From Frankia nepalensis (GTDB taxonomy: Bacteria; Actinomycetota; Actinomycetes; Frankiales; Frankiaceae), in NCBI RefSeq assembly GCF_016786325.1, contig NZ_JADWYU010000109.1, positions 1-45,083 on the forward strand: a stretch of 45,083 nucleotides of DNA, read 5' to 3'. The first letter of the stretch is position 1. Each line of letters begins with the position of its first letter. This document shows positions 3,171 through 24,733 of this stretch, piece after piece. A program made the position numbers and the translations under genes. Below the pieces are notes generated by a model. That model searched no databases, was not told the DNA's origin, and was given only the letters and a program-made list of their open reading frames with translations.

Positions 3171-6100
3171 GTGCGCCGGTGCGGAATCAGGGGACGAGGC
3201 GGCCCGCGGCCCGAGGGGCGTGGCTGCCACGGGCGGCGCTGGCGCTGCTGGTGGTCGGGGCCGGCGCTGTCGTCACGGTAGTGGGCGAACCCGGCCAGCC
3301 ACGGGCCCACTCGATCGGGCTCGACGAGGGCTCGGCCTGGCTGGTCTCGTCGGCCGTGGGGCAGGCCACGCTCGTCGACGGGACGACCGCGCAGGTCGTC
3401 ACCCGGGTCGACGTCGGGCCCGGCCCGCTGTCCGGCGCGCAGTCGGGCGCCGACGTGTTCGTCGCCGCCGGCGACGGCACCGTGCGGCGCGTCGACGGGG
3501 CGACGTTCGAGCCGTCGACACCGGTGTCGTTCTCCGCGGCACGCGAGCCCGTGTCCGTGTACCCGGCGGGCGGCACGGTGTTCGCCGTGGACCGGACGAC
3601 CGGCCGCGTGACAGCCGCCGACGCGGCGACCCTGCGCGTGCGCGACGCGTTCTCGCCGGTTGGCCGGGTGCCCGCGGGTGGCGCGCTCGCCGACGAGGAC
3701 CCCGAGGCCCCGGGCGGTGCCCGGCTGTGGCTCGTCGACGGTGAGACGGGCGACGTCCTCGGCATCGACGGCGGCGGCGAGCGGGTGCTCGAACGCGCCG
3801 TCGACCCGGCGCGGACCGTCCTGGTGCCGGCCGGCGACCGCCCGGTCGCGGTCGACCTCTCGGCCCGCCGGGCGTGGCCGCTCGACTCCGCCGGTGGCCA
3901 CGCCGCCTGCCTTGCCACGTCGCCAGGGGACGACACGGTGACGGTCGGCGGGTCGACCACCGCGCCGCGGGTGTATCTCGCCAGCGGCCGGGACGGCCGG
4001 CTCCTCGTCAGCGACCTCGCGACCGGGCGCTGCGACAACGCCGTGGCGGTGGCGGCGGCCGGTCACCGGCTGGGCCAGCCGCGGGAGGCGGCCGGCCGGG
4101 TGTTCGTCCCGGACCACAGCGCCGGCGACGTGATCGTCGTCGACGTGGCGGCCGGCCGGGTGGCCGCGCGGGCCCACGTGCTGCCCGACGACACCGAGTT
4201 CGAGCTGCGCGGCGACGGTCAGGCGGTGTTCTTCAACGATCCGGCCAGCGAGCGAGCGGGTGTCATCGGCCTCGACGGCACCCTGCGCATGGTGACGAAG
4301 TTCGACCCGGCGGGCGTTCTGGTGGCCGGCGGCGAGGGCCGCGTCGGCGCTGGTGACGAGGGCCCGGAAGGCGCCGGCCTCGACGGGCAGGCGGCTGGGC
4401 CGCTCGCCGGGCTGAACCTGCCGCTGCCGGCCGGGCCGACCGCCGGGCCAACCGCCGGGCCAACCGCCGGGCCGACCGCGGGGCCGACCGGGCCGACCGC
4501 CGGGCCGACCGCCGAGCCGACCGGGCCGCTCGCCGGGCCGGCGGCCCGGCCAGAGCCGGTCGGCTCGCCCGCCCAGCCCCAGGGGACCGTCGATCCCGTC
4601 TCCCTCCCTCCGGCAGGTGCCCCAGAGGCGCCCGCGTCGCGGGCGGCGCCGGCTCCCGGTGGGCCGGCCGGCGACGCTCCCCAGGAGCAGGCGGGGCGCC
4701 CGGACGCGCCGGCCGACGTGTCGATCGAGGTGTCGGCGGCCCAGGTGGCGGTCGGCGCGCCGGTCACCATGCGGGTCGTCGCCCGGGGAGCGGTCCCCGT
4801 CAGCGACGCGCGGTGGACGTTCGGCGACGGCCACAGTGCCGACGGCCTCCGGGTCACCCATGCCTGGTCCGAGCCGGGCGCCTACCAGGTGATCGCGTCC
4901 GCGCGGCTGGCGAACGGCCGGGTGGTGGCCCGGGCGGTCACGATCGCCGTCCTGGCCCAGGCCCCGCCAGCCCTGCCGGGGACCACGACGGGGCCTGGCG
5001 TCGACCCGCCGTCCGGAGTCGGGACCACCCCGCCCGTGGCAACGACGCCACCCGTACGGACGACGCCGCCGTCCGGAGTCGGGACCACCCCGCCCGTGGC
5101 AACGACGCCACCCGTACGGACGACGCCGCCGCCCACGACGCCGGGTTCCACCGGGCCAGCCGGCGACCCTTCCCCGAAGCCCACGGGGTACCAGTACGTC
5201 GCGGGCAGCTCAGGCAGCCTGATGGTCGAGCTGTCGACGCCCCGGACGGTGGTCGGCGCGCCGATCACGATGCGGGCCTACACGACGCGGATATCCCCAG
5301 TCAGCGACGCGCGGTGGACGTTCGGCGACGGCCGCGGCGCCGAGGGCATCCAGGTCGCCCATGCCTGGTCCGAGCCAGGCGTGTACCAGGTGGCCGTGTC
5401 CACACGGCTGGCGAACGGCCAGCAGATCGACGGGACGGTCGCGATCAGCGTCTCGGCGCCGGCTCCCCCGACCACGCCGCCGCCGACGGGGTCGGTCGTC
5501 GCGCCGACCGCGTCGCTCCGGGTCCTCACGGCTCCCGGAGATTCGACGACGCGGCAGGCCGGCGTGGACGCCTCCGGGTCGACCGGCGGCGGCCTGACCT
5601 ACCGATACGACTTCGGCGACGGCGCGACGGCGGGACCAACCTCGAGCAACGTCACCTGGCACACATACGCTTCCGCCGGCACTTACACGGTGACGCTGAC
5701 CGTTACCAATGCGGCCGGGTCGGCGACGGCCTCGGCCTCGGTGACGGTCAACGGGCGCGCGCCCGCGACGCCCGGCAACGTGGCGATCCTGGCGGTGAGC
5801 GCCTCGGAGGTCCGCCTGTCCTGGACGGATGGCGGCCTGGAGTCCGGCTACGAGGTGAGCGACGGCGCGCGCACCTGGACGCTGCCCGCCAACTCGTCGT
5901 CGTTCAGCAAGACTGGGCTCGCCGCGGGCACACGGGTCTGCCTGCGGGTGCGGGCGGTCAGCCCGTCGGGCGCGTCCGCCTGGGCACCGGAGCTGTGCGC
6001 GACGAGCGCGGACCCGCCGCCGCCGGCCCCCATGAAGCCCGGCACCCCGAGGGATGTCGCGGCGACCGTACTGGACCAGCACCGGATCCGGGTCACCTGG

Positions 6101-6304
6101 ACGGACCCTGGGGACAACGAGACCAGCTTCGAGATCCGTAGCGGCGAACACCTTTGGGTGGTGGGCGCGAACACCACGTCGCACGTGATCAATGGGCTGA
6201 ACCCCGGTGACGTGATCTGCCCGACGGTCACCGCGGTCAACCAGGCAGGCAGCTCGCCCGCGGCGTCCGGCAACTGCGCGATGATCGTCGAGACCGCGCA
6301 ATAG
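3167..6304 (+). CDS. Membrane-anchored beta-propeller / PKD / fibronectin III protein
   Basis: A protein of 1045 residues. The GTG start overlaps the preceding stop (GTGA); GTG at 3179, with GAGTGAG about 7 bases upstream, is an alternative. A hydrophobic anchor (about residues 20-41) is followed by a propeller-like domain (about 50-385) with repeated V-D-G and T-G-x-V strands and the segment FFNDPASERAGVI. Then come a Pro/Thr/Gly-rich linker with minisatellites, three PKD domains (about 518-597, 687-763, 781-862; cores WTFGDG, WTFGDG, YDFGDG) and two fibronectin III domains (about 865-947, 955-1045). Such proteins typically lie outside the membrane. PKD1 and PKD2 share a 34-base identical stretch, evidence of recent internal duplication. 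The gene closes the DUF58-transglutaminase operon. A paralogue is at 8450-11446. Confidence 0.88.
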   Translation: MSAPVRNQGTRRPAARGAWLPRAALALLVVGAGAVVTVVGEPGQPRAHSIGLDEGSAWLVSSAVGQATLVDGTTAQVVTRVDVGPGPLSGAQSGADVFVAAGDGTVRRVDGATFEPSTPVSFSAAREPVSVYPAGGTVFAVDRTTGRVTAADAATLRVRDAFSPVGRVPAGGALADEDPEAPGGARLWLVDGETGDVLGIDGGGERVLERAVDPARTVLVPAGDRPVAVDLSARRAWPLDSAGGHAACLATSPGDDTVTVGGSTTAPRVYLASGRDGRLLVSDLATGRCDNAVAVAAAGHRLGQPREAAGRVFVPDHSAGDVIVVDVAAGRVAARAHVLPDDTEFELRGDGQAVFFNDPASERAGVIGLDGTLRMVTKFDPAGVLVAGGEGRVGAGDEGPEGAGLDGQAAGPLAGLNLPLPAGPTAGPTAGPTAGPTAGPTGPTAGPTAEPTGPLAGPAARPEPVGSPAQPQGTVDPVSLPPAGAPEAPASRAAPAPGGPAGDAPQEQAGRPDAPADVSIEVSAAQVAVGAPVTMRVVARGAVPVSDARWTFGDGHSADGLRVTHAWSEPGAYQVIASARLANGRVVARAVTIAVLAQAPPALPGTTTGPGVDPPSGVGTTPPVATTPPVRTTPPSGVGTTPPVATTPPVRTTPPPTTPGSTGPAGDPSPKPTGYQYVAGSSGSLMVELSTPRTVVGAPITMRAYTTRISPVSDARWTFGDGRGAEGIQVAHAWSEPGVYQVAVSTRLANGQQIDGTVAISVSAPAPPTTPPPTGSVVAPTASLRVLTAPGDSTTRQAGVDASGSTGGGLTYRYDFGDGATAGPTSSNVTWHTYASAGTYTVTLTVTNAAGSATASASVTVNGRAPATPGNVAILAVSASEVRLSWTDGGLESGYEVSDGARTWTLPANSSSFSKTGLAAGTRVCLRVRAVSPSGASAWAPELCATSADPPPPAPMKPGTPRDVAATVLDQHRIRVTWTDPGDNETSFEIRSGEHLWVVGANTTSHVINGLNPGDVICPTVTAVNQAGSSPAASGNCAMIVETAQ
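4438..4530 (+). repeat. Minisatellite encoding a G-P-T-A linker
   Basis: A tandem 12-base unit (GGGCCGACCGCC and variants) repeats about seven times, encoding G-P-T-A / G-P-T / E-P-T steps between the propeller and PKD1. Third-position variants between copies show it is not brand new. Copy number probably varies between strains. Confidence 0.85.
5006..5130 (+). repeat. Perfect 60-bp tandem duplication between PKD1 and PKD2
   Basis: Two copies of a 60-base unit (5006-5065 and 5066-5125) are identical, and the next 5 bases start a third. The unit encodes a 20-residue P/T/V-rich linker, PPSGVGTTPPVATTPPVRTT. Perfect identity implies a recent or gene-converted duplication. Confidence 0.95.
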
Positions 6305-19108: not shown

Positions 19109-20473
19109 TCAGGTGGCTTGGCGCGGAAGGCTCGCGAGGTCGGCGAGGGTGAGGCGCGCTGCGGGGTCGGCGGTGCCGTTGGCGAAGGTGATGCCTTCCG
19201 ATTCGAGGACCTGCTGGGGAGTTTCGGCGCGGGCCGGGTCCGACCACTTGAAGCCCGGGGCGACCTTGCCGTCGGCGTTCAGTACTCGCCAGGCGTACTG
19301 GCAGGACGGGCACCTGGCGATGTGCTGGCCGAGCGGCTGAGCCTTGGTGCCGACCACCTGGGCGAGATCGCCGTAGGTGGTCCACCGGCCGGCGGGCAGC
19401 GCGTCGAGATAGGCGTGCAGGTCGGACCAGTCGCGTCCGCTCTGTCCTGGGACGTCCTCGGCAAGCTCCGCCAGGCTGTGTCCAGCCTCGTCCTCCCACC
19501 ACGTCGTTCCGCGCACCGCGCCGGGCGCCGATCCCGTGGCCTGGGTGAGGATGTGCAGGACGAGCCTGGTCGGCAGCCAGAAGCCGCCGTCACCCTCCCA
19601 GCGCAGCGGGCCCTTCGGGTCGTTGTGCCAGGTCGCCCGGCCGCGCGCCGGTTCCTGCTGCACCCACTGTTCGAGCTGGGCCCGCTGCGCGGCCGTCGCG
19701 GCCGAGAACGCGAGCCGGAGCGCGGTGCCGTCGGTGAGCGTCCCCGCGTCAACGAGCCTCCGCACCGCCGAGGCTGCCCGGGAACGCTGGACCTCCTTCT
19801 GAGTGACACGCTCGGCATCCGCCCGCGCCGCCGGGCTCAGGGTGAACTCCTCGGCACCAGGCGTAGGCCACAGCCGGTTGAAGCCCGCGAGGATTCCGTC
19901 AGCCGAGCGCCAGGCGGCCACCTCGACCAGTTCGACAATCAGGTCGAACTGCGCGAGCCAGACAGCGGTGTTGGTGACCTGCCGCGGGAACGCGCCGGCG
20001 ATCAGCATGATCCGCGGTTTGCGAAGCAGCTCCGGATCGAACTCGCCCCCGCCGATGTGCTCGAGCAGCAGCGCCCGAGCGGTATCGCGGTCCGTCGGGG
20101 TCCCACGCCTGGTCAGCCAGGCCGCGTGCGCGTCGGCGAGCGTGTCCAGCGTGAAGCCCGAGACCATCGCCGCATAGGTGATCGCCTGCAGATGGGTGTC
20201 CCCAGGCGCCGCGTCACGCTTGAGCTCCACGACCACGAGCCGGCCGGCGGCACTGAGCCCGAGAATGTCGAGCCGGTCCCGGGCGCGCACACCGTCGCCG
20301 CCGGTCCACTGGTCGTATTCGCTGGTCACGACCAGGACGTCGTCGCCGAGGATCGCGGGATTGGCGAGCACCCATTCCTGCAGGTGGGCCCGCTCACTCA
20401 GCCCTGCCTCGGCCAGCGAGACGCCGGACAGGGCTGTCGCCCTGCCGCCGTCGACCTTGAACAGCAACGTCAT
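19109..20473 (-). CDS. PD-(D/E)XK nuclease fused to an alkyltransferase-like (ATL/MGMT-type) domain
   Basis: A protein of 454 residues. ATG 20473 is chosen because MTLLFKVDGG is a natural family start; GTG 20512 would add 13 residues. Residues 1-130 resemble NucS/DUF91-like nucleases: LSERAHLQEWVLANPAILGD, then a PD-(D/E)XK core with Asp69 (RLDILGL) and Glu83-x-Lys85 (VVVELKRD), then QAITYAA. A long middle region follows. The last about 90 residues match the DNA-binding domain of O6-methylguanine methyltransferase: LPAGRWTTYGDLAQVVG, QHIARCPS, WRVLNADGKV and VLESEGITF. The alkyl-acceptor Cys of P-C-H-R-V is replaced (Y-A-W-R-V), as in ATL proteins that flag alkylated guanine for repair without repairing it. 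I infer a damage- or modification-directed nuclease. Confidence 0.82.
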   Translation of the reverse strand: MTLLFKVDGGRATALSGVSLAEAGLSERAHLQEWVLANPAILGDDVLVVTSEYDQWTGGDGVRARDRLDILGLSAAGRLVVVELKRDAAPGDTHLQAITYAAMVSGFTLDTLADAHAAWLTRRGTPTDRDTARALLLEHIGGGEFDPELLRKPRIMLIAGAFPRQVTNTAVWLAQFDLIVELVEVAAWRSADGILAGFNRLWPTPGAEEFTLSPAARADAERVTQKEVQRSRAASAVRRLVDAGTLTDGTALRLAFSAATAAQRAQLEQWVQQEPARGRATWHNDPKGPLRWEGDGGFWLPTRLVLHILTQATGSAPGAVRGTTWWEDEAGHSLAELAEDVPGQSGRDWSDLHAYLDALPAGRWTTYGDLAQVVGTKAQPLGQHIARCPSCQYAWRVLNADGKVAPGFKWSDPARAETPQQVLESEGITFANGTADPAARLTLADLASLPRQAT

Positions 20474-20582
20474 CGCCGTCTTCACCCCGCCGTCCGGCGC
20501 CCCGACCACCACGCGCCGCCCGCGGCCATTCCACCACGACTGCGACGAAGCGCTGTCTACCAGTTATCCGAGGCCTCGAGAC

Positions 20583-21137
20583 TCAGGAGCCGGTGAGTCC
20601 GAACTCTGCGCGTAGGGCGTCGACCGCGAGTCGGCGGTGGGAGACGAGGTTCTTCTGCTCGGTGGGCATCTCGGCGAAGGTCAGGTCCCCGCCCGCTGGG
20701 ACGAAGATTTCGTCGTAGCTGAAGCCGTTGGTGCCGCGCCGTTCGGTGGCCAGCGTGCCTTGGACGGTTCCGGTGAAGATCCGGATGCCGTTGGCGTCGG
20801 CATAGCCGAGGGCGGTCGTGACGGTCGCGGCCCGGTCGGTCAGGCCGGCGGCCATGTCGAGGATGCCCTGGGTGCCGACGGAGCCGAGGAACCAGGCGAC
20901 GAGCGCGCCGGGAAGGCCGTTCCACGCGTTCACCGCCAAGCCTGTGTCGTCGACGAGCACGGGGACCCCGAGCTTGGCGTAGGCATCGGCGACTTTCCGC
21001 TCGACTACTGCCACCACGTCGAGGGACTGGATCTCGATCAGATCTTCCTTGACGGCTCGTACGTCGATGCCCAGCAGGGTGGCATACTCGGCCGCCTTGC
21101 CTTCGTTCCCTGTGATCAGTGAGGCGCGCTCGATCAT
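20583..21137 (-). CDS. Ham1/RdgB-type non-canonical purine NTP pyrophosphatase
   Basis: A protein of 184 residues. ATG 21137 has AAAGGAA about 8 bases upstream; an earlier GTG/ATG at 21185 lacks a better site. The ITPase motifs are in order: SLITGNEGKAAEYATLLG (S-G-N-x-x-K-x-x-E type), VPVLVDDTGLAVNAWNGLPG, and NGFSYDEIFVPAGGDLTFAE followed by EKN-like EQKN-LVSHRRLA. The family hydrolyses dITP, XTP and related nucleotides to monophosphates, cleaning the pool. The sequence is divergent from housekeeping actinobacterial rdgB (for example F-S-Y-D-E for F-G-Y-D-P), so this may be a second, specialised copy. It lies between the nuclease-ATL gene and an FxLD-type methyltransferase, all on the minus strand. 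Confidence 0.88.
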   Translation of the reverse strand: MIERASLITGNEGKAAEYATLLGIDVRAVKEDLIEIQSLDVVAVVERKVADAYAKLGVPVLVDDTGLAVNAWNGLPGALVAWFLGSVGTQGILDMAAGLTDRAATVTTALGYADANGIRIFTGTVQGTLATERRGTNGFSYDEIFVPAGGDLTFAEMPTEQKNLVSHRRLAVDALRAEFGLTGS

Positions 21138-21160
21138 CTGGGCATTCCTTTGGGGAGGTG

Positions 21161-21358
21161 ATGTCATCTCTTGCTGTGAAGCCAATACTGGGAGACGTTG
21201 GTGAGGCGAACAACGTCGGCGTGCTCAAGCGGAACGACGCTACTCCAGAGGGACACCAGTTCTCCGCCCCGTACCGGAGCGGAGAACTTCCACCAGAGTA
21301 CGTAGACGTCGAGGCGCCCGGACCAGAAGGTGATGGCCCGAGAAGGGGCTCGCGATGA
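21161..21358 (+). CDS. Candidate small peptide gene beside the FxLD-type methyltransferase
   Basis: A 65-residue frame opening MSSLAVKPILGDVGEANNVG, with GGGGAGGTG immediately before the ATG. It contains KRNDATPEG, SAPYRSGELPPEYVDVE and a D-G near the end; there is no Cys and no Trp. Third-position G/C is clearly lower than in neighbouring genes, so it is either not coding or recently acquired. It lies opposite to the flanking minus-strand genes, 23 bases from the pyrophosphatase start. I raise it as a possible RiPP precursor because of the adjacent methyltransferase; this is inference and the frame itself is uncertain. Confidence 0.3.
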   Translation: MSSLAVKPILGDVGEANNVGVLKRNDATPEGHQFSAPYRSGELPPEYVDVEAPGPEGDGPRRGSR

Positions 21359-21388
21359 CCTCGCGCATCCGCCTTCCCCTTCCTCTGG

Positions 21389-22612
21389 CTACGGCCAGGA
21401 CAGCACGATGCGGCTGTGGCGTCTGTCGATGACCCGGCCGGTGGGTAGTTCGCTGTCCGGGGTGGTTCTGGGGTGCACGGTGACGCGGGGGCCGGGGCCG
21501 TCGCGGTGGGCGTGGTTCCAGTGGCGGACCTGCGCGGCGAACGCCTCGGCAAGCGTGGCGGCGTCCGGGCCGAAGCCGTGGACCTTGAAGCGGAACATGT
21601 CGTCGTCGACCTTGTGCCCGCCGAGGTAGGCCAGACTGGCGCCGTCGACCGCGGCGTGGCCCATGCCGACGGTCGGCGGAATCCGGCCGGCCGCCTTCTC
21701 CTTGTCGACGGTGAGGTGGCAGTAGCCGTCGAACGCGGTCGCCAGCCACAGTTGCAGCGTCTCGAACGACACCATGTTCGGGAAGATCACCCCGGTGTCG
21801 ACGTCGGCCCGGGGCATGTCGAGGACACCCGCGAGCTGATCAGCGCTCTCGGGAAGGTCGTCGTCGAAGACCAGCGCGATCCGCTCCCCGTCGAGCGGCA
21901 GCCTCGGCTTGTCGTGCGCGCCGGCTCCGCGCATCGGGACGAACCCGGAGAACAGCACCGATGTGCTTTCCAGCCAGCCGCCACGGGACTCGAAGGTGAC
22001 GGTCCGGTTCAGCCCTCGCAGGCGCAGCGGCACGACGAGGCGCCCGCCCTCGACCAGCTGGCCTGTCCACGCCGGTGGGATGTCCCAGGCCTGGGCGGTG
22101 ACCAGGATGACGTCATAGGCAGCCGACGCGGGCACGCCGTCCTCGGCGTCGGCGAGCACGACCCGTACCTGGTCGTAGCCCGCCGCGGCCAAGCGACGGC
22201 GGGCCCGGTCGATCACCTCCGAGTCGATGTCGACGGTCGTCACGTCGCCGGTCGGCCCGACGAGTTCGGCCATCAGCGCCGCGTTGTATCCGCCAGAGCC
22301 GACCTCCAGGCAGCGCATACCCGGGCCAACACGCGCCGACTCAAGCATCCTGGCCTGCAACCAGGGCGCGGACACCGAACTGAGCACCACACCGTGCTCG
22401 TCCCGCTTGGTCCGCACGACGTCATCGGCGTACGCGGCTTCCAGCGACACCTCCGGTGTGAACAGATGCCGCGGCACCGCGCGGAAGGCCGCCTCGACCT
22501 TCGGTGTTGTGATCATCTTGCCCGCGAGCAGCTTGTCAACCAGCCCGCCGCGGGCCTCCGCCGCGCGTTGGGCGTCACCCAGGACACTGGCGATCTCCGT
22601 CATTCCAGCCAC
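21389..22612 (-). CDS. FxLD-system protein-L-isoaspartate-type methyltransferase
   Basis: A protein of 407 residues. GTG 22612 has GGAGG 6 bases upstream; ATG 22603 is an alternative. The N-terminal half is a PCMT/PIMT fold: VEAAFRAVPRHLFTPEV, the SAM motif MRCLEVGSGGYNAALMAE, TTVDIDSEVIDRARRRL, and AWDIPPAWTGQLVEGGRLVV. The C-terminal about 180 residues (FVPMRGAGAHDKPRLPL, MVSFETLQLWLATAF, ending GRVIDRRHSRIVLSWP) match the extended family annotated as methyltransferase of the FxLD system, found with lanthipeptides and related RiPPs. Such enzymes methylate Asp in a peptide, yielding aspartimide or isoAsp. No lanthionine synthetase, ATP-grasp enzyme or obvious FxLD precursor is adjacent, so it is solo here or works with an unlinked or novel peptide. 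Confidence 0.88.
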   Translation of the reverse strand: MAGMTEIASVLGDAQRAAEARGGLVDKLLAGKMITTPKVEAAFRAVPRHLFTPEVSLEAAYADDVVRTKRDEHGVVLSSVSAPWLQARMLESARVGPGMRCLEVGSGGYNAALMAELVGPTGDVTTVDIDSEVIDRARRRLAAAGYDQVRVVLADAEDGVPASAAYDVILVTAQAWDIPPAWTGQLVEGGRLVVPLRLRGLNRTVTFESRGGWLESTSVLFSGFVPMRGAGAHDKPRLPLDGERIALVFDDDLPESADQLAGVLDMPRADVDTGVIFPNMVSFETLQLWLATAFDGYCHLTVDKEKAAGRIPPTVGMGHAAVDGASLAYLGGHKVDDDMFRFKVHGFGPDAATLAEAFAAQVRHWNHAHRDGPGPRVTVHPRTTPDSELPTGRVIDRRHSRIVLSWP

Positions 22613-22847
22613 GCACGACCTCCCTTCCAAGGCCATGGTTCCGCTGGGCATTGTGGGAAGGAAGCACTTGGTTGTCCGCGGACACCAGCGGACACGCGTT
22701 GCCGCGGCTACACCGGGTCAGCGCCGCGGCCGCGGGCGGGCACGGTCACCGGCGACCAGGCTCCCTGGCGTATACCGACGTTGCCGAGACACAAGCACAG
22801 GCGCCATGATCGGCCCACTGTTTCATCAGAGGAGTCAGGAATGCGTT

Positions 22848-23189
22848 ATGTCGATCTCAAACCAGCGGATGACAGAGTATGCGTTTCTGCGATCGCTGTA
22901 CGAAGACGACTATTTCCCAGGCCACGTCCTCGACATGGGAAAAGCGATCCTGCTGCGCCTGTGCGAGCGGATTGAGGCAGAGCAGCCGTCGGACCTGGCG
23001 GACCTCTACCTGCTCACCCAGGCGGCGACGGAGGAGTTCAACCTCCTGGAGGAGGAGTTCGACGCCGCCGGAAGCGAGATCGAGACCGTGGCGCGGGAGG
23101 CGATCGGTGAGGACTTCTGGTTCGTCGCGCAGGCCTACGGCTTCACGGACGCGGACCACGAGGAGCTGATCGGCAACCGGAACTGGTAG
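22848..23189 (+). CDS. DUF5713 family protein
   Basis: A protein of 113 residues. ATG 22848 (MSISNQRMTEYAFLRSLYED) follows CAGGA by 7 bases; an overlapping ATG at 22841 is in another frame. The sequence matches the small acidic DUF5713 family along its length: DDYFPGHVLDMGKAILLRLC, then LYLLTQAATEEFNLLEEEF, SEIETVAREAIGEDF and AYGFTDADHEELIGNRNW. The family is all-helical, cytoplasmic and of unknown function. It is divergent from the methyltransferase across 235 bases; no functional link is evident. Confidence 0.85.
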   Translation: MSISNQRMTEYAFLRSLYEDDYFPGHVLDMGKAILLRLCERIEAEQPSDLADLYLLTQAATEEFNLLEEEFDAAGSEIETVAREAIGEDFWFVAQAYGFTDADHEELIGNRNW

Positions 23190-24312: not shown

Positions 24313-24660
24313 GGTCCTCCGCCTGGTGGCGTCCGCCGCACGGTAGCCCCGGCTCGCAAGGAGCGCGGCCCTACGGGTCAGTCCTCCCCACGGCCATCGC
24401 GCAGGGCATCACGAGCGACATCGCCGGCCGTACCGCCCAGCCCCGGTAGCAGTAGCCACCGGGCGGCACCGGCGAGGCCAGCGGGGACGGGGAGTGGACC
24501 TGCTCCGCGGCGCCGGGCAGGCCGCTGCCGAGAAGGTCGCGAAGGCGGTGCCGCGCCGAGTGGTGCGGCCTCACGCCCACCTGACGCCCACAAAGATCAA
24601 CGAGGGCCTGGAGACGGTCCCCGAGGAGCCGGACATGCCGCCTGACCTGGGGTTTGCGGG
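24313..24660. other. Intergenic gap upstream of the kinase gene
   Basis: About 350 bases between the kinase start and the tRNA 3' end. Open frames on both strands here show no family resemblance, and one runs into the tRNA, so I regard them as chance. I see no strong hairpin or repeat. Confidence 0.45.
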
Positions 24661-24733
24661 TGGGCCGTCAGGGACTCGAACCCTGAACTCGCCGGTTAAA
24701 AGCCGGCTGCTCTGCCAATTGAGCTAACGGCCC
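24661..24733 (-). tRNA. tRNA-Lys (anticodon UUU)
   Basis: On the minus strand the gene runs from GGGCCGT (acceptor 5') to ACGGCCC plus discriminator A, 73 bases, CCA not encoded. The anticodon arm is GCCGG-CTTTTAA-CCGGC, giving anticodon TTT. The D arm (GCTC...GAGC) and T arm (CAGGG-TTCGAGT-CCCTG) pair perfectly. Confidence 0.97.

Follow-up and report, generated by a model that had tools for sequence, protein, structure and literature searches.

In this study, we find that a functional-looking peptide L-aspartyl O-methyltransferase (PAMT), encoded in a 45,083-nt stretch of the Frankia nepalensis genome (hereafter the window), was in all likelihood left without the rest of its operon by a deletion or rearrangement, and that a neighbouring 65-aa ORF plays no part in its pathway. 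As read from the DNA, the operon is present in relatives, the window holds a stub of a radical-SAM gene and a junction behind the methyltransferase, and no intact partner genes were found in the draft genome. The locus suggests one route by which a PAMT becomes an orphan, namely loss of the operon around a still-intact enzyme. What is new is a candidate precursor for radical-SAM plus PAMT clusters, taken from two Pseudofrankia loci (L039 and L119), its product and activity being predicted.

Results

The PAMT gene (21389-22612, minus strand) is intact, encodes 407 aa and starts with GTG, with an in-frame ATG at 22651. Its product is a genuine FxLD-type PAMT by its match to TIGR04364 ('methyltransferase, FxLD system'; 500.9 bits, cut-off 320, profile positions 1-394), carries a PCMT domain (PF01135, 137 bits, residues 24-227 of 407) and is predicted to methylate Asp on a peptide. 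An earlier note on this DNA had called it a solitary, 407-residue PCMT-like RiPP methyltransferase without a lanthionine enzyme, and on each of these points it was right: the genome-wide matches to the LanB model PF04738 lie only on contigs C25, C353 and C376, and the window is contig C375. In an AlphaFold2 model (mean pLDDT 92.3) the N-terminal half has a PIMT fold, with another part of mixed alpha/beta structure, also modelled with high confidence, at residues 237-405; the closest PDB structure, Thermotoga PIMT (1DL5), fits loosely overall (375 columns, TMq 0.50, rmsd 9). In a passage of Lee et al. (PMC10787088), the C-terminal domain of PAMTs is likened to the extra C-terminal domain of 1DL5. 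The WxxxGxP motif, ascribed in part of a review (PMC13001092) to the enzymes of lasso peptides, graspetides and imiditides, is absent from the window PAMT and six relatives, and occurs in 7 of 91 tabulated PAMT loci.

Nothing points to decay of the PAMT, which looks intact. NG86 dN/dS was 0.19 against L039 and 0.23 against L119, versus 0.18 between L039 and L119, and since this gives no indication of relaxation, the enzyme may still have a substrate of its own. Polarising the amino-acid changes placed 12 on the branch to the window, compared with 11 on the other, and left 21 ambiguous. Of the residues invariant in six other PAMTs, 7 were changed in the window, versus 5 along the branch to L039/L119 and 4 only in L119. 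The window PAMT had no unique departure where 24 other family members (L039 included) are invariant, a count that conceals changes common to the window and L039. Where at least 21 of 23 family members agree, it departed 8 times, and at 7 of these L039 departed too, the position being the same but not in every case the residue; the lone departure not common to L039 is G343K. The seven joint departures suggest a substrate other than FxLD lanthipeptides. An intact PAMT is compatible both with recent loss of its partners and with a role in trans.

Besides L039, the window PAMT is 44-56% identical to those of 79 listed loci; in most of these, LanB/LanC and FxLD precursor genes lie nearby. LanB was a neighbour in 64 of the 91 tabulated loci, several of which are the same place entered twice (e.g. 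L041/L123, L045/L131 and L060/L127). The table had begun with 94 entries, from which L044, L056 and L081 were dropped as no methyltransferase gene was called in them; all three had LanB, LanC and FxLD matches. Neighbour clusters were named for the FxLD precursor from two members, and for LanB and LanC from those of the window genome itself. An all-against-all comparison of small frames at seven PAMT loci, noisy through composition, gave no conserved ORF beside the orphan Frankia loci L120-L123 among the matches listed. At L041 (10001 onward) and L123, the same place in Frankia, two PAMT genes flank genes for an HTH/TPR regulator and a dehydratase-like protein, both of which also occur in the surroundings of the Pseudofrankia operon. 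To a distance of three genes, this locus has none of the LanB cluster.

The nearest PAMT orthologue is that of L039 (G005:C22, Pseudofrankia sp. BMG5.36, catalogued in the genus of the window genome; 86% identical), followed by that of L119 (G006, Pseudofrankia; 83%). In both, a divergent NsdA-family HTH/TPR regulator gene is followed by genes for the PAMT, a radical-SAM enzyme, a 47-aa peptide and an APH-like kinase, with 14 nt between the PAMT stop and the radical-SAM start. The radical-SAM gene of L039 (11239-12348) encodes 370 aa. The peptide gene has the ribosome site and start GGGAGGTGACACC-ATG and the product MTAVMVELGPRPATVDDDSTELQLVEDLDVLSASDMCSCSAGDNNPY, which ends in CSCSAGDNNPY; the peptides of the two loci are the same at 46 of 47 residues, with one difference. 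By its place beside the PAMT, this peptide is a putative PAMT substrate. In NCBIfam the radical-SAM enzyme scored best with the mycofactocin maturase TIGR03962, but its 67.8 bits fall far short of the cut-off (265) and it is not a member of that family. The SPASM pattern is CX9-15GX4C ... CX2CX5C, with CX3C as the next spacing. All five aligned radical-SAM sequences have CX3CX2C and the SPASM-type cysteines CX9-15GX4C ... CX2CX5C, and then CX2C in place of CX3C. The arrangement of PAMT, radical-SAM and peptide genes comes from two related genomes and therefore counts as one evolutionary case.

Behind the window PAMT, the same operon breaks off. The first 17 codons of the lost radical-SAM gene (MREVIASPFSGHHLLVR) remain at 21318-21368 on the minus strand, located behind the PAMT stop just as in L039 (44 of 51 nt the same) and L119 (43 of 51), and homology stops beyond. 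By blastn, L039 covers window positions 21319-22726 and L119 positions 21319-22702. From the other side, a third congener (G004) matches the window at 86% identity over 20582-21321, which comprises rdgB and a 51-codon tail; the two homologies share 3 nt (CCG) at 21319-21321, the deletion or rearrangement junction. The tail (21164-21319, minus strand) is a pseudogene remnant, the last 51 codons and stop of a gene for a 349-aa protein (about 60% aa identity to G004) that stands upstream of rdgB in G004. The window rdgB gene (20583-21137, minus strand, ATG at 21137) encodes a RdgB/HAM1-type nucleoside triphosphate pyrophosphatase (PF01725, 146.5 bits) and has 86% DNA identity with both L119 and G004. 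On the far side of the PAMT gene, its 5' flank is retained (22613-22726, minus strand); L039 homology ends at 22726, so that this spot lacks the divergent HTH/TPR regulator gene carried by L039/L119, and the best match to that regulator elsewhere in the window genome is 49% identical. Small minus-strand ORFs around the PAMT were considered and rejected; those with homology in the gap between PAMT and rdgB are the frame of the radical-SAM stub and the tail of the 349-aa protein.

Several other features lie in or near this region. A strong hairpin in the pseudogene tail (21235-21315, minus strand; -43.6 kcal/mol, z -4.6 versus shuffles) may serve as a PAMT terminator, with the T run absent after it. 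Upstream, the PAMT gene adjoins a divergent DUF5713 gene (22875-23189, plus strand; PF18977, 152 bits), where L039 and L119 have the HTH/TPR regulator. The minus-strand gene at 19109-20512 encodes a 467-aa protein whose N-terminal part weakly matches a NucS-like model (23 bits, far under cut-off) and whose C-terminal part has the DNA-binding domain of O6-methylguanine-DNA methyltransferase (28.4 bits, cut-off 27), an unusual DNA-repair-like fusion. In G004 (L197, 7522-9969, minus strand), the three genes before rdgB encode the 349-aa protein, a 207-aa protein, neither with a Pfam match, and an adenosine deaminase. The surroundings of rdgB in G004 may form a nucleotide-metabolism island, with rdgB and the tail as what the window would have kept of it. 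A further stretch of L197 (5393-5945), about 1 kb from the first, is 84% identical to window rdgB (20596-21149), a possible tandem duplicate of rdgB in G004 judging by this likeness. ARAGORN called tRNA-Gly (gcc) at 3432-3525 and tRNA-Lys (ttt) at 24659-24733; the former, lying inside the frame of a PKD/fn3 protein (3179-6304), is possibly false.

The missing genes were sought in the rest of the window assembly, a draft of 398 contigs and 96.8% completeness in which genes could sit in gaps. Directly behind the window PAMT no intact radical-SAM gene is present beyond the 17 codons, and no radical-SAM orthologue was found in the draft genome (best match 27% identity, E 2e-11), where contig C342 has a relic-like match of about 31 codons. 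A search of the draft gave no 47-aa peptide (best E 3.5) and, when run without a positive control, no match anywhere to the APH-like kinase. Nor was an intact copy found of the 349-aa protein gene, which is represented in the genome by the tail and a 38-39-codon N-terminal relic on C335. Four TIGR04364 enzymes score above cut-off in the genome, and the three outside the window adjoin LanB-type genes on C25, C353 and C376. These loci also have LanC-like genes, the Pfam LANC_like model having been run on two of the three and matching both, and precursor candidates. The FxLD precursor model gave 50.3 bits on C353 and, just below the cut-off of 30, 28.6 bits on C376; for C25, where no model matched, a peptide with the motif FDLDV that resembles the one at the same position in L132 was taken as the precursor. 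The LanC and precursor models were run on hand-picked proteins, and the LanB model on the whole genome. The window locus itself lacks the adjacent LanB, LanC and precursor genes that define an FxLD lanthipeptide cluster.

The earlier note had offered the 65-aa ORF (21161-21358, plus strand), which starts in the 5' flank of rdgB, as a candidate precursor for a two-gene imiditide pathway. Its description of the frame was accurate. The 65 codons are there, with ATG at 21161 behind a GGGGAGGTG-like ribosome site, and although the window has many frames of this size (136 of 50-120 codons), strong matches to such a site are uncommon among them (5 of 136), so the stress laid on it was fair; the low G/C third-position bias that it mentioned was borne out as well, GC3 being 0.60 versus 0.87-0.89 in the five window genes measured. 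As a precursor, we reject the ORF, for its want of a homologue, its GC3, a mirror frame in G004 and its position across the junction, antisense to the two gene remnants. It has no Pfam or NCBIfam match, and tblastn against 133 records, the window included, returned only itself (next best E 0.06). A later search brought up a G004 stretch about 60% identical to it (E 1e-20), which mirrors coding on the opposite strand; there the ATG is out of frame by a 1-nt indel, an in-frame GTG lies a few codons further, and no PAMT was seen beside it. In a codon-substitution test of the 51-codon tail against G004, dN/dS was 0.59 in the minus frame and 0.82 in the ORF frame, weakly favouring the former, with 11, 8 and 12 differences by codon position. 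Homologues of the ORF beside the methyltransferase, which the note had proposed looking for, are absent next to the close orthologues L039 and L119, where a better precursor stands instead, the 47-residue peptide behind the PAMT and radical-SAM genes. The frame is thus very unlikely to encode a precursor and appears to be an accident of overlapping frames.

The radical-SAM enzyme and its peptide belong to a wider family. With a relative of the radical-SAM protein as query (E 1e-60), 15 of 393 genomes of the class matched, as did 54 of 295 Streptomyces (genus g24) genomes. We assembled 50 loci spanning Frankiaceae, Streptomyces, Nonomuraea and one further family: 19 from the first searches, five of six matched plasmid records, and 26 more from Streptomyces, these being the new ones among the best-scoring matches with a locus returned. 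Every one of the 50 has a short peptide directly downstream of the radical-SAM gene with the C-terminal pattern C...[DNE][DN][NQV]P[YFH], recounted with one expression except that the motif of L146 was read by eye. The peptide ends in a stop in 49; L146 reaches the contig end without one. As a control, the pattern matched 21 of 5,542 frames in the first set, all 21 in the slot, and a slightly wider pattern matched 26 of 1,926 frames in the later set, again all in the slot. The strict motif search had found 21 of 24 peptides, L181 and L182 (GCGEDNP[YF]) and L146 being added on inspection, and 22 of the 24 were aligned, leaving out L146 (no stop) and L177, a duplicate of L167 in the same genome. 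Pfam and NCBIfam gave no significant match for the ten peptides, out of the 50, that were scanned (best E 0.04, far under the model cut-off), and two FxLD precursors in the same scan matched clearly. An APH-like gene of the same cluster accompanies 13 of the 19 first loci. Annotation of the plasmid records reads 'radical SAM protein' and 'hypothetical protein' in four of five, the stretch of L183 being without annotation.

A PAMT gene adjoins the radical-SAM gene in 2 of the 50 loci, L039 and L119 only, within stretches that differ in length and reach about 1.5 kb either side in the 26 Streptomyces cases. L167 and L177 have a distant PCMT homologue about 4 kb from the radical-SAM gene, counted as non-adjacent. 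The second acidic core residue is Asn in both PAMT-linked loci and Asp in the 48 others; as L039 and L119 are close relatives, the Asn replacement and the presence of the PAMT amount to one event.

Discussion

Our model holds that the ancestor of the window locus would have resembled the Pseudofrankia operon, with a divergent NsdA-family HTH/TPR regulator, the PAMT, a radical-SAM/SPASM maturase, the 47-residue precursor and an APH-like kinase. A deletion or rearrangement at 21319-21321 would then have taken the rest of the operon, leaving the PAMT and the radical-SAM stub. In the complete operon, the radical-SAM enzyme would modify the Cys-rich C-terminal core of the peptide, and the PAMT would methylate an Asp in that core from SAM, leading through an aspartimide to isoaspartate, by analogy with the characterised PAMTs in passages of PMC10787088 and PMC13001092. 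The PAMT step probably comes after the radical-SAM step, given that a cyclised substrate is a requirement in the lanthipeptide, lasso-peptide and graspetide pathways that have a PAMT. In the window strain, with no cognate substrate near it, the PAMT would be either a young orphan or an enzyme acting in trans, with the FxLD lanthipeptides of the three other loci as one possible target. More tentatively, at somewhat under even confidence, we suggest that the lost operon represents a type of RiPP that pairs radical-SAM/SPASM chemistry with PAMT-made aspartimide or isoaspartate on a 47-residue precursor with the core CSCSAGDNNPY. It could be one offshoot of a larger family of radical-SAM RiPPs, apparently without a name, whose cores read C...[DNE]D[NQV]P[YFH] and which is common in Streptomyces, and the window strain a natural partial deletion keeping the PAMT only.

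Other readings of the locus have to be weighed against partner loss. If the PAMT acted directly on the 65-aa peptide, the two would form an imiditide (type I pamtide) pathway, and two-gene PAMT clusters do exist, according to passages of PMC10787088; the ORF has a ribosome site as good as that in just 5 of 136 window frames of similar size. Yet the ORF is absent beside both close orthologues, overlaps two opposite-strand gene remnants, has a GC3 of 0.60, finds its lone likeness in G004 with the ATG out of frame, and at 65 aa exceeds the type I precursors of about 45 aa given in the same passages, and the PAMT has no WxxxGxP. We regard this pathway, the one that the earlier note put forward, as extremely improbable, the ORF being unconserved and the motif missing from the enzyme. 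That the junction is an assembly error, with the operon complete in the living strain, we consider very unlikely. The assembly is a draft of 398 contigs and the junction is internal to one contig, which leaves such an error conceivable; against it stand an overlap of just 3 nt and the fact that the remainders of the radical-SAM and 349-aa genes occur elsewhere as short diverged relics only. Both missing halves are thus absent from the assembly, which makes misassembly unlikely, and a 349-aa gene reduced to an N-terminal relic speaks for a real rearrangement.

The remaining alternatives concern what the enzyme does now. It could be a spare LanSA-type enzyme that serves in trans the FxLD lanthipeptides encoded on C25, C353 and C376, where LanB-type and LanC-like genes, a TIGR04364 enzyme and FxLD precursor candidates are found together, and most PAMT relatives do serve lanthipeptides, as their LanB neighbours indicate (64 of 91). 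Each of these loci already has its own enzyme, however, and the seven departures common to the window and L039 at conserved columns count against such a role, which we hold to be unlikely. Present service as a general isoaspartate-repair methyltransferase seems rather more doubtful still: OlvSA, a characterised PAMT, also methylates isoaspartate, in a passage of PMC13001092, and the window PAMT has the PIMT fold in its N-terminal half and is conserved without a partner, but it keeps its C-terminal domain, and RiPP-associated PIMTs are described in the same passages as highly specific. Stranding of the PAMT by loss of its operon remains the reading we prefer.

Among known systems, the window PAMT is like the FxLD PAMTs (LanSA, e.g. 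OlvSA) in its full-length TIGR04364 match above cut-off. It differs from them in the seven departures and in lacking both a LanB gene on the contig and an adjoining FxLD precursor, and its orthologues in L039/L119 differ in having a radical-SAM gene and another peptide in the place of LanB and precursor. With the imiditides (type I pamtides; SpaA/SpaM, NmaA/NmaM) the window shares a PAMT without an adjoining lanthionine synthetase, whereas it has no conserved precursor, no WxxxGxP, and a radical-SAM remnant instead. The radical-SAM enzyme recalls the mycofactocin maturase TIGR03962 and SPASM maturases in its best NCBIfam match, its SPASM-type cysteines and a peptide that often ends in an aromatic residue; the system departs from that of mycofactocin in score (67.8 versus 265 bits), in its core motif and in the APH-like kinase of many clusters. 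We found no description of the radical-SAM/peptide family in the open-access literature, including passages of PMC11285071, which, given that scope, is weak evidence that the family is undescribed. In passages of Lee et al. 2023 (PMC10787088), 3,653 PAMTs are given without a clue to their role, together with 249 radical-SAM plus PAMT clusters for which no precursor was found. L039 and L119 are like those clusters in having the PAMT and radical-SAM genes adjacent, and differ from them in the short peptide gene that follows the radical-SAM gene.
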